Shown here: positions 4,992-29,072 of the stretch, in pieces
Layout: every line of letters starts with the position of its first letter
Numbering within the stretch: position 1 is the first letter of the stretch
Source: a virus
IMG/VR virus record: IMGVR_UViG_3300031862_000012
Span: 1-39,422 of that record
Reading direction: 5' to 3' (one strand)
DNA: 39,422 nucleotides
Position numbers and translations under genes: made by a program
Notes under the pieces: model-generated
What the model was told of the DNA's origin: nothing
What the model saw: the letters and a program-made list of their open reading frames with translations, nothing else
The model's database searches: none

Positions 4992-5098
4992 TGAACAACA
5001 ACAATAATCACTTTTACGAATTAATTTTATTTTTTATTAGAATAATTTTTACAATTATTTTTATTGGTTTTGTGATATTTTTAATAACCAAAATGTGA
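4991..5098 (+). CDS. Tiny single-helix membrane protein
   Basis: A 35-aa open frame from the ATG at 4991: a polar N-terminus with five Asn, then a long hydrophobic helix (FIRIIFTIIFIGFVIFLI) and a short TKM end. No Shine-Dalgarno is visible. It precedes the endopeptidase and holin-like genes, where a small holin, antiholin or other lysis regulator would be at home. Its short length makes the call uncertain. Confidence 0.4.
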   Translation: MNNNNNHFYELILFFIRIIFTIIFIGFVIFLITKM

Positions 5099-5099
5099 T

Positions 5100-5193
5100 A
5101 TCTGCTCCCAGTAAGCCCCTTAAATTGCTTAGGCTTTTTTTGGGGTAATAAATCAATCTATTCTGCAGAATGGAAAGACCGCTGGGAGTAGAT
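5100..5193 (+). ncRNA. Structured leader with nested terminator before the lysis genes
   Basis: ATCTGCTCCCAG (5100-5111) pairs with CTGGGAGTAGAT (5182-5193) over 12 positions including one G-U. Inside are AAGCC (5113-5117) pairing with GGCTT (5132-5136) followed by a T7 run, which looks like an intrinsic terminator, and a CTATTC-TGCA-GAATGG hairpin (5158-5173). The M23 gene starts 10 nt after the outer stem. This could be an attenuator-type leader or a terminator embedded in a stable RNA; no known riboswitch class is recognised. Confidence 0.45.
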
Positions 5194-5203
5194 ATAAAAA
5201 TAT

Positions 5204-5974
5204 ATGAAAACCTCATCGGGACAAGAAATTAATTTAATACCGCCATTAAAAGATATTTCTATTATTCAAAAATTTAATGGGATGGTTTTTGATTACAAAA
5301 CCCTAATTGGAACAATCTCCCATAATGGTATTGATCTTATGGCAAAAAGAGGCTGTCCAGTTTATGCTGCTCACGACGGCAATATTACTTGGGCGGGCAA
5401 AGACGGCGATGGCGGTATCTCGGTTCAGATTATTGCCTCACCAGTTAGTTTAAGTTTTTACACCCTTTATTATCATCTTTTAGAAGTTAAGGTAGAGGCA
5501 GGACAAAAAGTTAAGGCAGGACAATTAATCGGGCTTGCTGATAATAGTGGTCGTGTTACTTCTGGCGACCATCTTCATTTCGGGCTGAAAGAAACCTTAA
5601 ACGGGGAGACGATTAACAAAGATAATGGCTGGCGGGGAGCGATTGACCCATATCCTTTCTTTCCAAAAGATTTTGACAAGCCCCATTGCTATCATCGCTA
5701 TGGCAAACCAAGAAATTGGTATGCGGAATTTTGTGTCAGATTTGCTCCAATTTATATTAAAAATCAATGGTCGGAAACTGGCAGATTTGTCCACAAAGAA
5801 TTAAAAAAATTGGGCTGGGAGCCACCAATCCCTTCTGGCAATATGGTTAATGCGATTATTTACGGGGCTTGGGATTGGAAGCATATAATGAATCCCTTAA
5901 TGGAGTGGCAATGGCTTTACACAACAAAAGAAGAATGGCAAAAGGGTAAAGTTCCATTTTTTCAAATAGTTTAA
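5204..5974 (+). CDS. M23-family peptidoglycan endopeptidase (endolysin)
   Basis: 256 aa. The N-terminal 150 residues are an M23 (LytM-type) zinc metallopeptidase domain: H40-x-x-x-D44 in HNGIDL, H91 in YYHLLE, and HLHFG (123-127). These match the zinc ligands and catalytic His of enzymes that cut peptidoglycan cross-bridges. There is no signal peptide, so release probably needs the holin-like protein encoded next. The C-terminal 100 residues are rich in Trp/Tyr and could bind cell wall, but I recognise no binding family. The gene follows a structured leader (5100-5193) and is the main lysis candidate. Confidence 0.85.
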   Translation: MKTSSGQEINLIPPLKDISIIQKFNGMVFDYKTLIGTISHNGIDLMAKRGCPVYAAHDGNITWAGKDGDGGISVQIIASPVSLSFYTLYYHLLEVKVEAGQKVKAGQLIGLADNSGRVTSGDHLHFGLKETLNGETINKDNGWRGAIDPYPFFPKDFDKPHCYHRYGKPRNWYAEFCVRFAPIYIKNQWSETGRFVHKELKKLGWEPPIPSGNMVNAIIYGAWDWKHIMNPLMEWQWLYTTKEEWQKGKVPFFQIV

Positions 5975-6323: not shown

Positions 6324-6524
6324 ATGAATAAAATGACAAAAGAGGCAATAGCCACATTAAGATTAATTCCTAAAACTAAATGTAAGATTTGCGGAACACC
6401 AAGAAGTTATACTAATCCTATGGCAAAATGCTTAAAATGCGGGTTAAAATTCTGTTATAACCATATTACTGTAATTTTTGGTAAAAAGGGGACGGAAGAC
6501 TACTGCGATAGATGTCTACAATAG
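6324..6524 (+). CDS. Small zinc-ribbon protein
   Basis: 66 aa with three cysteine pairs: C-x-x-C in CKICG, C-x-x-C in CLKCG with a nearby CYNH, and C-x-x-C in CDRC at the end. This spacing indicates a small zinc-binding fold, probably a nucleic-acid or protein interaction module. It follows a terminator and has its own promoter 6 nt before the ATG, so it is probably expressed separately from the lysis genes. A regulator role early in infection is possible but not shown. Confidence 0.6.
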   Translation: MNKMTKEAIATLRLIPKTKCKICGTPRSYTNPMAKCLKCGLKFCYNHITVIFGKKGTEDYCDRCLQ

Positions 6525-6645: not shown

Positions 6646-6675
6646 AGTGGATAACTGCTACTTGACTGTGGATAA
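6646..6675. promoter_or_regulatory. Two DnaA-box-like sites upstream of the initiator
   Basis: AGTGGATAA (6646-6654) matches the reverse complement of TTATCCACA at 8 of 9 positions, and TGTGGATAA (6667-6675) matches perfectly. The second overlaps the promoter at 6662-6690, so DnaA binding could both assist replication and repress initiator transcription. Confidence 0.55.
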
Positions 6676-6690
6676 GTCTTATGGTAAAAT
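6662..6690 (+). promoter_or_regulatory. Promoter of the replication region
   Basis: TTGACT (6662-6667), 17-nt spacer, TAAAAT (6685-6690): 5/6 matches at both boxes with ideal spacing. Transcription would start near 6697, giving a leader of about 165 nt that contains the structured element at 6732-6838. Confidence 0.7.
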
Positions 6691-6731
6691 GAAAGTAATG
6701 AAGTAATATAAATATATGCTTGAAATCTTGT

Positions 6732-6838
6732 TACAATTAAACCTTTATAACGCAGTGTGTCTACCACGATTTAATCGTGGGTGGTCCGCAAGAGCCATAA
6801 GCAAGACGCACTGCCTTATAAAGGTTTTTTAATTGTAT
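6732..6838 (+). ncRNA. Long-stem three-way-junction RNA element (5' leader or small RNA)
   Basis: Bases 6739-6762 pair with 6804-6827 over 24 positions with one C-C mismatch and one G-U; flanking TACAATT/AATTGTA extends the stem by about 7 bp past a 3-nt bulge. The enclosed 41 nt form two hairpins: CCACGAT-TTA-ATCGTGG (6764-6780) and TGGT...GCCA around CCGCAAGA (6782-6797). A T6 run (6825-6830) starts within the 3' end of the stem, so the stem could act as a terminator. It lies between the promoter at 6662 and the initiator gene. Possible roles are an attenuator or riboswitch-like leader, a stable small RNA of about 135 nt, or a DNA hairpin used in replication. I match it to no known class. 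Confidence 0.6.
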
Positions 6839-6861
6839 TTTTAATTAATTAAGTTAAATTT

Positions 6862-7605
6862 ATGGAACAAAAGCAATTATTTAAAGTTAGAGATTTAAGA
6901 CAAAAAACACAGTTTAAAATTGATGATTTATATCTTAATGGATATGCGAGAATTTGCGGAATTAATGCTACTTTAGTCTATATGTCTTTATGTCGGCACG
7001 CTGAATTTGAAAGCCAAAAAGCATTTCCATCGCAAAATAAAATCGCTTGGGAACACGGGGTTTCTACCCGAACCATTAAAAGGGGATTAAAAGAACTTAT
7101 CAAATATAATATAATAATGGTTAAACAAGAAAAAATTAATGGTAAATTTAATAATAATATCTATTATCTTTTAGATAAATCAGAGTGGAAGAAATCCACC
7201 GAGGGACAAGACAGTCACACGGAACACCGTGGGACAGAAACCGTGGGACAAACACCGAGGGACTATAAGTCACCCAGAAGGATAACAAATAGTAAGGATA
7301 ACAAAGATTATAAGGATAACAAAGAGTGTGTAGTAACCCCCTCACAAATAGCCAAAGAATTTTTTAACAATCAAGATAAGCAAATAAACACCATAAATTA
7401 TCTTATAAGTAAAGGGATAGACGAACAAACCGCAAGTAGCGAAATTAAGAAATTTATCTCTTACTGGACAGAACCGAATAAGTCAGGCACTAAACAACGC
7501 TGGGAGCTGGAAAAGACTTTTGAGCTTAGTAGACGACTTTCTGTTTGGTTTCAAAATCATCAAAAATTTAATAAGTCTAATAAAATTAACATTGTAAAAT
7601 TATGA
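6862..7605 (+). CDS. Winged-helix replication initiator (HTH_36 type)
   Basis: 247 aa. Residues about 25-110 form a winged helix-turn-helix: ATLVYMSLCRHA, then SQNKIAWEHGVSTRTIKRGL as the recognition helices and a basic beta-wing ending NNNIYYLL. This is the layout of phage and plasmid initiators of the HTH_36/DnaD-like kind. A low-complexity linker (about 111-155) is encoded by DNA carrying iteron-like repeats. The C-terminal domain ends in KQRWELEKTFELSRRLSVWF, a block often seen at the end of phage replication proteins. It probably binds the origin inside its own gene and recruits the host helicase. No Shine-Dalgarno; it overlaps the next gene by 4 nt. Confidence 0.75.
   Translation: MEQKQLFKVRDLRQKTQFKIDDLYLNGYARICGINATLVYMSLCRHAEFESQKAFPSQNKIAWEHGVSTRTIKRGLKELIKYNIIMVKQEKINGKFNNNIYYLLDKSEWKKSTEGQDSHTEHRGTETVGQTPRDYKSPRRITNSKDNKDYKDNKECVVTPSQIAKEFFNNQDKQINTINYLISKGIDEQTASSEIKKFISYWTEPNKSGTKQRWELEKTFELSRRLSVWFQNHQKFNKSNKINIVKL
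7198..7323. repeat. Iterons plus AT-rich repeats: candidate replication origin
   Basis: ACCGWGGGACA units occur at 7198, 7226, 7240 and 7254 (the last ends in T), spaced 28, 14 and 14 nt. They are followed by three copies of AAGGATAACAAA at 7278, 7294 and 7312. The 14-nt period is not a multiple of three, so the repeats fall in different frames and cannot be explained by protein repetition. GC-richer iterons next to AT-rich repeats inside an initiator gene is the lambda-O-type origin layout. Confidence 0.65.
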
Positions 7606-9508: not shown

Positions 9509-9913
9509 ATGAAAATTTACAAAACGCAGGCAGAGGTGGAAGCAGATATTAAAAATGATATTTTGCTTATTAAAGGTGATGTTAGGTTTGAATGTTCAAT
9601 CACTATTTCAGCATCAATAAGAGTAAACGCTGGGGACATTAACGCTAAGGACATTAACGCTTATGACATTAACGCTTGGGACATTAACGCTGGGAACATT
9701 AACGCTTGGGACATTAACGCTGGGAGCATTAACGCTGGGGACATTAACGCTGGGGACATTAACGCTGGGAACATTAACGCTGGGAACATCTTATATTTTG
9801 CTTTTTGTTGTGTCTATGATTCAATAAAATGCTTATCAATCAAAGCAAAAAGAAAAAAACACCAGGAACCAATTTGTTTAGGGGGAAATTTAAAAATTAA
9901 AGAAAAAATATGA
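9509..9913 (+). CDS. Protein with 11 five-residue INAxD repeats (beta-solenoid-like)
   Basis: 134 aa. After an ordinary N-terminus of about 38 residues come 11 tandem five-residue units of the form I-N-A-(G/K/Y/W)-(D/N/S), then a hydrophobic and cysteine-containing segment (ILYFAFCCVYDS) and a basic tail. Regular five-residue repeats with Ile at one position and Ala at another suggest a stacked beta-solenoid similar in principle to pentapeptide-repeat proteins, though the register differs from the classical A(D/N)LxX. Some pentapeptide proteins mimic DNA and inhibit gyrase; whether this one does is unknown. Confidence 0.6.
   Translation: MKIYKTQAEVEADIKNDILLIKGDVRFECSITISASIRVNAGDINAKDINAYDINAWDINAGNINAWDINAGSINAGDINAGDINAGNINAGNILYFAFCCVYDSIKCLSIKAKRKKHQEPICLGGNLKIKEKI
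9623..9789 (+). repeat. 15-bp tandem repeat array within a gene
   Basis: About 11 head-to-tail copies of a 15-bp unit based on ACATTAACGCTGGGG. Variation is mostly confined to the bases coding the fourth and fifth residue of each unit (Gly, Lys, Tyr or Trp, then Asp, Asn or Ser). Because the unit is a multiple of three, copies can be gained or lost by slippage without breaking the frame. Confidence 0.9.
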
Positions 9914-18507: not shown

Positions 18508-20201
18508 ATGGCATTTACTAAGACCTAATTGGTAAATTAAAAGAGGGTGAATTGCTGGAAATCCTAAATTTGACACAGATTGGAAACAAGTGTGAAATAT
18601 AGTTAGACAAACTATATGAAACATTTATCAGAAATAACTAAAAAAAAGATTAGCGAAAGTAATAAAAAAATTATTCATACGGAAGATTGGAATAAAAAAG
18701 TAGCATTGGCTCAAAAAGGAAAACATAATTCTATTAAAACAGAATTTAAAAATGGGCATAAACAATTAAACACTGGAAAAACACATTTTAAAAAAGGTCA
18801 TACCCCATGGAATAAAGGAAAATTAATGCCCATTGGTGAAAAAGCTAATAACTGGAAAGGTGGAATAAGTAGAGCATATAAAACAGGTTATTATTCTTTA
18901 GAATATAAAAAATGGCGAGAAGCAGTTTTTAAAAGAGACAATTATACCTGTAAATGCGGAAATAAAGAATATATTACTGCCCATCATATAAAATCTTTCG
19001 CTAAATATCCTAAATTAAGATTTAGGGTGTCAAATGGAATAACGCTTTGTGAGACATGCCATTGTCTCCGAGATAAATACAGAGCGAGATTTAAAAAAGG
19101 ACAATCAGCAGCCAAGCCGTCAGAGACGGAAGGTTCAGAGACTACTGGAGTATAGCGATATACTTAATAACCAGAATTAGCGCCCTCCACTTTATAAAAA
19201 TAAAGTGATGATATAGTCCGATACTCCAAGTAATTGGAGATTAACAAAAAAAGGATTGGTCTCAGCTTTCTTCTATTACCAGACGGCATGTTGTTCCAAC
19301 AGTTACCGATAATATAATCAAAGATTACGCTTTATTAGAACGATTATTGAGTAATCAAGAAACAAAAACTGGCGGAAGAACAATAACCTTTCCAATTCGT
19401 TATCGCTTTAATACTCAAGGCGGTTCTTATTCAGGGCTTGAAGTCTTAGACTCGGCTCAGGAACAAACCAGAGTAAGAGGCGAATTGGATTGGAAGCAAT
19501 ATCATCAACCGATTGTTTTATCAAATGCTGATTTGGCTAAGAATGGCAATGGTTTGGAACAGGTAGTGGATTTAGCTACTCAGGAAACTAATGAAGCAAT
19601 GGTTGATTTAATGGATAAATTATCAATTGGACTTCAAGGCGATGGCACAGGTAATTTTTCTAAAGCGATTGATGGTTTGATTGCGGCAGTGGATGACAGC
19701 ACTAACTTGGATAACTACGCAGGTATTTTACGGAGTAGTTACACATGGTGGAAAAGTTATTATGTCGCTTCAGTCGGTTCACTTGCGTTAGCAGATTTAT
19801 CCACAGCTTATGATTCAGTTAAGGTAGGCAAAGGCGGCCCGACATTGATATATACCACTCCGACATTGTGGAGCGCTTATGAGGCTCTTTTACAGGCACA
19901 AGTCAGATTTGCTGGTCCGACAACTTTAGACGGCAGTTCAACAGAATTACAATATCGCAAGACTCCAGTTATTTCTGACGATTATTGCGCCAGTGGAAAG
20001 ATTTGGATGCTGAACGAAAAGTATTTAAAACTTTACACCTTAAAGCATCCTAAATATCCGACTGACAAAAATGGGATTGCGACCTCGCCGTTTGTCGTTC
20101 CGTCAACTCAGGATGGACAATTGGCTTATCTTATAATCTATCTTAACTTGATTGACTTGCAGTGCCGAAAGCAGGGCGTCTTAGTCGGTTGCACCGCTTA
20201 A
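18508..20201 (+). CDS. Major capsid protein, split by a group I intron
   Basis: The coding sequence is proposed as 18508-18526 joined to 19255-20201, 966 nt or 321 aa. Exon 1 encodes only MAFTKT plus one base after an AGGAGG ribosome site. Splicing completes a Tyr codon and gives YWSQLSSITRRHVVPTV, continuing in frame to GCTA at 20201. Exon 2 alone has no proper start or ribosome site (the nearest start-like codon is TTG at 19347). The protein has the features of an HK97-fold coat protein: an N-terminal helix, GGRTITFPIRYRFN, and long central helices (LATQETNEAMVDLMDKLS). Position after the scaffold supports this. The exact splice points are my proposal. Confidence 0.85.
18527..19254 (+). ncRNA. 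Group I self-splicing intron in the capsid gene
   Basis: About 728 nt. Exon end ACCT can pair with GGGT in the intron (GAGGGTGAA, about 18543-18551), giving P1 with the required U-G at the splice site. GAATTGCTGGAAATCCTAAA follows as core P3/P4-like sequence. P7 is GACTA (19140-19144) with TAGTC (19214-19218); P8 is CACTTTA/TAAAGTG just before it. P9 is CTCCAA-GTAA-TTGGAG (19224-19239) with a GNRA loop. The intron ends in G at 19254. It contains an HNH endonuclease gene whose end overlaps the catalytic core. Confidence 0.85.
18616..19155 (+). CDS. HNH homing endonuclease of the capsid-gene intron
   Basis: 179 aa. The N-terminus HLSEITKKKISESNKK is a NUMOD3-type DNA-binding motif, followed by basic G-H-K/G-K repeats (KKGHTPWNKGK). 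The nuclease has CKCGNK (113-118), the catalytic pair HH (123-124), N140 and CETCH (145-149), which form a zinc-containing HNH site. Such enzymes cut intron-less alleles so the intron is copied in. The gene lies inside the intron and its last 16 bases run through P7. A paralogue is encoded at 31465; both have a WKGGIS block. Confidence 0.88.
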   Translation: MKHLSEITKKKISESNKKIIHTEDWNKKVALAQKGKHNSIKTEFKNGHKQLNTGKTHFKKGHTPWNKGKLMPIGEKANNWKGGISRAYKTGYYSLEYKKWREAVFKRDNYTCKCGNKEYITAHHIKSFAKYPKLRFRVSNGITLCETCHCLRDKYRARFKKGQSAAKPSETEGSETTGV

Positions 20202-28975: not shown

Positions 28976-28990
28976 TTTACTTAAGTGATT

Positions 28991-29057
28991 CCAGGAAAAT
29001 ATTTATTGCCATTCTCTTTAATCCTCCGGAGAATACAAACAATAAATATTTGACTGG
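28991..29057 (+). other. Stable stem-loop before the connector gene
   Basis: Bases 28991-29008 pair with 29040-29057 at 16 of 18 positions. The two mismatches are a tandem GA/GA step between CCAG/CTGG and AAATATTTATTG/CAATAAATATTT. An inner ATTCTC/GAGAAT hairpin (29011-29016, 29029-29034) sits inside. No T run follows. It could be an mRNA processing or stability element separating the sugar cluster from the tail genes. Confidence 0.55.
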
Positions 29058-29072
29058 AACAAAGGGGGTCAG

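Follow-up and report, generated by a model that had tools for sequence, protein, structure and literature searches.

A putative transcription attenuator with crossing helices in the replication initiator leader of a phage with a likely CPR host

Introduction

Crossing base pairs in the leader of a replication initiator gene are found in ColIb-P9 repZ, where they act on translation together with a leader peptide and an antisense RNA. This pseudoknot switch of IncI-alpha and IncB initiator leaders is represented in PMC10724649 by titles in its list of cited works. The attenuators of plasmids pIP501 (repR) and pT181 (repC), which are driven by antisense RNA, place a terminator in the untranslated initiator leader, downstream of the promoter of that gene (PMC4981023, PMC5703833). 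The locus studied here lies in a viral stretch of 39,422 nt (IMGVR_UViG_3300031862_000012), the whole of which is referred to below as the window. It resembles pIP501 and pT181 in carrying a terminator-like hairpin in an initiator leader behind its own promoter, but it belongs to a phage and not to a plasmid, its leader is without an antisense promoter signal, and its competing strand pairs inside the terminator loop instead of with a terminator arm. With the ColIb-P9 leader it has crossing base pairs in common, but a U run stands at the end of its downstream hairpin, and an antisense signal was not seen.

Classical attenuators (trp, T-box and transcription-terminating riboswitches) likewise set an early helix of the nascent RNA against a later terminator. 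Their scheme is 1:2, 2:3 and 3:4, however, whereas the strands of the window pair 1:3 and 2:4, so that the rival helices share no strand, and the leader matches no ligand-binding Rfam family. In phage T4, hairpins precede homing-endonuclease genes. Structured leaders before phage genes, including endonuclease genes in one of the relatives collected here (L261; L-numbers denote relative loci), are a point of likeness, but leaders of the type found in the window are terminator-like, have a competing helix and stand mainly before initiators. To our knowledge, little is known about gene control in the phages of CPR bacteria, and we know of no prior description of an attenuator designed around crossing helices.

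Structure and position of the leader hairpin

A first-pass annotation of the window had placed at 6732-6838, between a promoter and the initiator gene, a stem of 24 positions with one mismatch and one G-U, extendable outwards, that encloses two hairpins and ends in a T run, and each of these parts was recovered in its place (Table 1). An inverted-repeat scan ranked the two arms of the long stem, P1, first in the window. They contain a single C.C mismatch (6751/6815) and one G.U pair, and when 6732-6739 also pairs with 6830-6837, leaving some of the U run bulged out, the stem reaches about 30 pairs. Hairpin 2 (HP2) adjoins hairpin 1 (HP1) with zero nucleotides between them, and a junction strand of 5 nt (AAGCA, 6799-6803) lies between HP2 and the P1 3' arm. 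Thermodynamic folding, which had been proposed as a check, gave an MFE of -53.3 kcal/mol for 6700-6860; dinucleotide-shuffled sequences averaged -26.2 +/- 3.3 (z -8.2), and 0 of 200 folded as stably. A window scan identified the hairpin as the most structured 120-nt window in the entire 39-kb record.

The hairpin lies 44 nt downstream of the promoter, and about 24 nt separate its end from the initiator ATG. A terminator-like hairpin with a U tract is thereby found between promoter and gene, as is expected of an attenuator. The annotated limits hold for the hairpin itself, but that of the functional element probably lies before 6732, at the transcription start near 6697.

Table 1. Positions of the features in and around the initiator leader of the window
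Feature	Position	Strand	Evidence
Sigma-70-like promoter TTGACT-17-TAAAAT; putative start near 6697	6662-6690	+	shuffle P 0.005-0.01
DnaA box TTATCCACA inside promoter spacer	6667-6675	-	motif count
38-codon ORF through hairpin, candidate leader peptide	6716-6832	+	shuffle P 0.04 for the window
A5', competing strand in 5' leader, UGCUUG + UCUUGU	6717-6731	+	P 0.005, restricted region (defined after the pattern was seen); P 0.12, whole inner region
B5', P1 5' arm and outer extension	6732-6762	+	folding, inverted repeat
P1, arms of long stem	6739-6762 / 6804-6827	+	24 nt, 92% complementary, 41 nt apart
HP1, CCACGAU-UUA-AUCGUGG	6764-6780	+	folding
HP2, GUGGU...GCCAU, apical GCAA	6781-6798	+	folding
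A3', HP2 loop, HP2 3' arm and junction strand AAGCA	6788-6803	+	complementary to A5'; ends where B3' begins
B3', P1 3' arm, U6 (6825-6830, intrinsic-terminator-like) and outer extension	6804-6837	+	sequence, folding, inverted repeat
Replication initiator, HTH_36 N-terminus, C-terminal YWTEPNKSGTKQRWELEKTFE motif	6862-7605	+	PHROG 270 'replication initiation protein'
In-gene iterons, ACCGNGGGAC x4 and AAGGATAACAAA x3	7195-7327	+	repeat search

Three further features of the window may be recorded. The second-strongest fold (5098-5195, + strand; z -5.4 versus shuffles) lies before an M23 peptidase gene at 5204, and its outer stem of 14-15 bp covers GGGAG, a possible ribosome site, and encloses a hairpin that itself contains a U7 run. 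Between late genes lies another long inverted repeat (28989-29059; arms of 20 nt, 90%), with a weaker fold (z -3.0) and no U run, and a protein of 134 aa (9509-9913) consists largely of repeated 'INAGDINA'-like units.

Relatives and probable host

Relatives were collected by homology of the initiator protein alone, and no locus was picked for its RNA. The C-terminal motif of the initiator matched 80 viral loci, and a refined initiator profile also matched 80, on contigs partly overlapping those of the first set; the initiator of seven loci has the same N-terminal type as that of the window. Two Patescibacteria assemblies were matched, one of Ca. Collierbacteria (L178) and one of Ca. Peregrinibacteria (L179), and a TM7 phage occurred among the distant matches of the window's capsid protein. 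Together these matches point to a CPR bacterium as the likely host, an assignment to be read with the caution that phage contigs can be mis-binned.

Terminase and capsid were tried as another route to relatives and abandoned, as they led only to distant phages or to loci with no more than the terminase N-terminus in common. A group I intron (18509-19350, + strand; Rfam match at 19003-19240), carrying an HNH ORF (18616-19155), seems to be inserted in the 5' end of the window's major capsid gene, the long ORF of which starts at 19347 and is without the N-terminus present in relatives.

Recurrence of structured initiator leaders

The refined group comprises 27 loci, each of which was scanned along its length in 120-nt windows. 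The strongest local fold fell within the initiator leader in 11 of them (the window, L098, L099, L101/L106, L125, L140, L163, L178, L181, L184 and L193), where about 5% would be expected per locus; L227 and L249 rank first too, but fold inside the coding start and were left out of this count. In the wider group, L128 and L158 also have their top fold in the initiator leader. A hairpin of this kind is absent from many initiator leaders, and L119, a close relative by its initiator, has a small one only.

The stem runs into 5-7 U in the window, L098, L099, L178, L125, L106 and L140, and there is no terminal U run in L163, L193 and L181. A promoter near to TTGACA-17-TATAAT was found 36-51 nt upstream of the hairpin in the window, L098, L099, L106, L261 and L163, and a weak match at the same distance in L178; over 14 leaders, the median shuffle P of the sense promoter was 0.0125.

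A three-way junction common to four leaders

The leaders of the window, L178, L099 and L098 follow one plan, consisting of P1, abutting HP1 and HP2, a junction strand of 5-6 nt, the P1 3' arm, and a U run before the initiator. The stem sequence of the window is not common to the other three, despite exactly the same three-way junction. L178, L099 and L098 were aligned with one unpaired nucleotide removed from each of two sequences to keep register. Compensatory change in the stem, another check that had been suggested for the element, was abundant in this alignment: 98% of cells pair, 13 of the 20 core pairs differ on both sides, and sliding the partners drops pairing to 33-57%, but because the structure was derived from the aligned sequences themselves, these figures show consistency more than independent proof.

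A model (R1) was built from the three sequences, without the window. With filters off, it gave 14.2 bits to the element of the window, at full length and in exact register (E 4e-4 for 181 b), against 14.9 bits for a chance site elsewhere in the window, and under default filters the element was missed. Searched against 380 Patescibacteria genomes, R1 returned its source and otherwise only three weak matches at chance level, and the initiator profile matched that source genome only. That the RNA of the window belongs with those of L178, L099 and L098 is supported, not certain.

At the gathering score, no Rfam family was matched (riboswitches, ribozymes, phage pRNA, 6S and others), while under that threshold the hits were confined to miRNA models of long hairpins and to matches at chance level. 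With the same architecture in three relatives, the original description of an unclassified three-way-junction RNA is upheld. Nucleotide searches of phages and plasmids gave chance A/T-rich matches only, and a description of such phage leaders was not found in the literature searched, the coverage of which was incomplete. Among other candidates, phi29 pRNA was dropped for want of an Rfam match, and integron attC on sight, there being no R' GTT core. On visual inspection, kissing of the HP1 loop with the junction strand proved weak and inconsistent.

A probable competing helix between the 5' leader and the hairpin

A strand in the 5' leader, A5', is complementary to A3' within the hairpin. In the window this helix, A, has two parts, in which UGCUUG..UCUUGU pairs with GCAAGA..UAAGCA, and the layout is the same in L098, L099 and L178. 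When compared with shuffled leaders, over a restricted region defined after the pattern had been seen, the four members of this subset gave P values of 0.005, 0.001, 0.021 and 0.006 (Fisher 1.2e-6), and HP1, used as control, gave P 0.84. The alternative helix is strong for the group; for the window alone it is weak, short and bipartite (P 0.62 ungapped, and P 0.12 against the whole inner region). Simple long versions are found elsewhere: L184 has 12 bp, L106 12 pairs with one G.U, L261 11 bp, L163 and L263 10 bp each, and L103 9 bp.

Helix A and the terminator stem B have no bases in common, but their order crosses. The end of A3' is separated from the start of B3' by 0-2 nt in most leaders, and since the linkers between A5' and B5' are also short, full coexistence looks sterically unlikely and the two helices would be expected to compete.

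Under one automatic rule applied to all hairpins of these loci, the helix between the upstream flank and the apical part averaged 7.5 in the leaders (n=19) versus 5.4 in 247 others (P 1.3e-6), and in the same test a helix between the downstream flank and the hairpin apex was not enriched. Two cruder automatic tests, in which delineation was poorer, gave P 0.014 and P 0.038. A direct search for the crossing motif ranked these leaders high and yielded two more copies in L261. That locus has crossing-helix elements at 1415-1468 and 6450-6499, directly before homing-endonuclease-like genes (DUF559/Vsr-like, NUMOD3), as well as one before its initiator.

The arms were delineated by hand for the ungapped and two-part tests of helix A and for nascent folding. 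In the latter, A is predicted to form (P 0.6-0.99) once A3' has been made in 12 of 13 leaders, L125 being the exception, and B in most leaders once B3' emerges. The switch from A to B is late or partial within the range tested in L099, L106 and L261; in the window, helix A is gone after about 9 nt of B3'.

Discussion

The region analysed in this study is interpreted, with confidence slightly better than even, as a transcription attenuator leader of the replication initiator, in which the terminator and a competing helix cross (A5'-B5'-A3'-B3'). This interpretation draws on the computed structure, layout, recurrence and complementarity of the leaders, and on the predicted order of folding. If the promoter is used, as we infer, transcription would begin near 6697, and the nascent RNA would first pair A5' with A3'. 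Once B3' is out, the long stem B would form beside the U run and the polymerase would be released, giving an RNA of about 135 nt, while read-through past B would give the initiator mRNA. In the simplest mechanism, helix A would delay or prevent formation of the terminator, and an RNA-binding protein, translation, and the speed of the polymerase are candidates for shifting the balance between A and B. As to the direction of control, in the window the stability of B greatly exceeds that of A, so that termination is probably the default there unless A is favoured. Since the layout is kept in relatives despite their differing sequence, the leader RNA probably sets the amount of initiator made. Consistent promoter spacing and the U run bear out the attenuator reading of the first-pass annotation, which was nevertheless only partly supported overall; it did not include A5', the repeated occurrence of such structures before initiators in other loci, or a likely CPR host.

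The stability of B relative to A in the window, and the U6 after its stem, would also suit a passive leader terminator, with a fixed share of read-through keeping the initiator low and helix A either incidental or only a guide to folding. The leader at 5098-5195 of the same phage, in which no helix A was found, is consistent with this as well. We nevertheless consider a passive terminator unlikely, as the layout of helix A reappears unchanged in sequences that have diverged, and on the upstream side only.

Lower again in our estimation is control linked to translation, under which the leader ORF, or a pseudoknot-like state, would govern translation of the initiator or formation of the terminator, after the manner of ColIb-P9 repZ or of attenuators with a leader peptide. 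ORFs cross the hairpin in the window, L178 and L099 and stop just past the U run, and the crossing pairs resemble pseudoknot switches. However, the four ORFs seen over 10 leaders, against about two expected, are not a significant excess, their reading frames disagree with the structural alignment, and no clear Shine-Dalgarno sequence is covered; the ORF of the window is probably due to chance.

A small RNA, about 135 nt long and free to act elsewhere, with the initiator expressed by read-through or from another start, would account for the promoter, the stable fold and the terminator-like end. It is a still less probable explanation, as the relatives always tie the element to the downstream start codon, and neither its sequence nor its loops are conserved.

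The surroundings of the leader invite a further explanation, a palindrome that is extruded, or read as a single strand, during replication. The window contains five perfect DnaA boxes against 0.29 expected (at 6667, 8376, 8419, 15094 and 19797), and the first of these lies within the initiator promoter, a site at which DnaA could have an additional effect on the DNA itself. The iterons inside the initiator gene likely mark, on sequence grounds, a lambda-type origin, and the same strand is strongly folded as DNA too (z -8.2). Against a DNA element stand the U run on the sense strand, the fixed promoter spacing, a competing helix with the upstream and not the downstream flank, and the distance of the iterons, 350 nt off and within the gene, all of which render it very improbable. 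A DnaA box was also seen upstream of the initiator leader of L178.

Antisense-RNA-driven attenuation of the pT181/pIP501 kind likewise places an attenuator in the initiator leader and follows the same logic (PMC4981023, PMC5703833), but across 14 leaders sigma-70-type promoters on the antisense strand show no enrichment (median P 0.66; 0.60 in the window), which leaves it scarcely credible. By analogy, the leader of the window may work like these plasmid initiator attenuators, but with no sign of their antisense component.

Beyond the crossing-helix attenuator of the window itself, it may tentatively be proposed, at rather less than even confidence, that these leaders represent an undescribed class of leader switch, conserved in topology but not in sequence, that is found in phages of probable CPR hosts before initiators and sometimes homing endonucleases, and that senses a signal so as to time genome replication. 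If the attenuator interpretation is true, a recurrent, compact switch with a conserved layout before the initiator would be a concrete and testable control point in these phages, and would suggest that initiator attenuation in the style of plasmids occurs also in phages. The topology of the crossing helices would also provide a rule by which to find such elements where sequence searches fail, and, if termination and switching are shown, these leaders would constitute a new class of leader switch.
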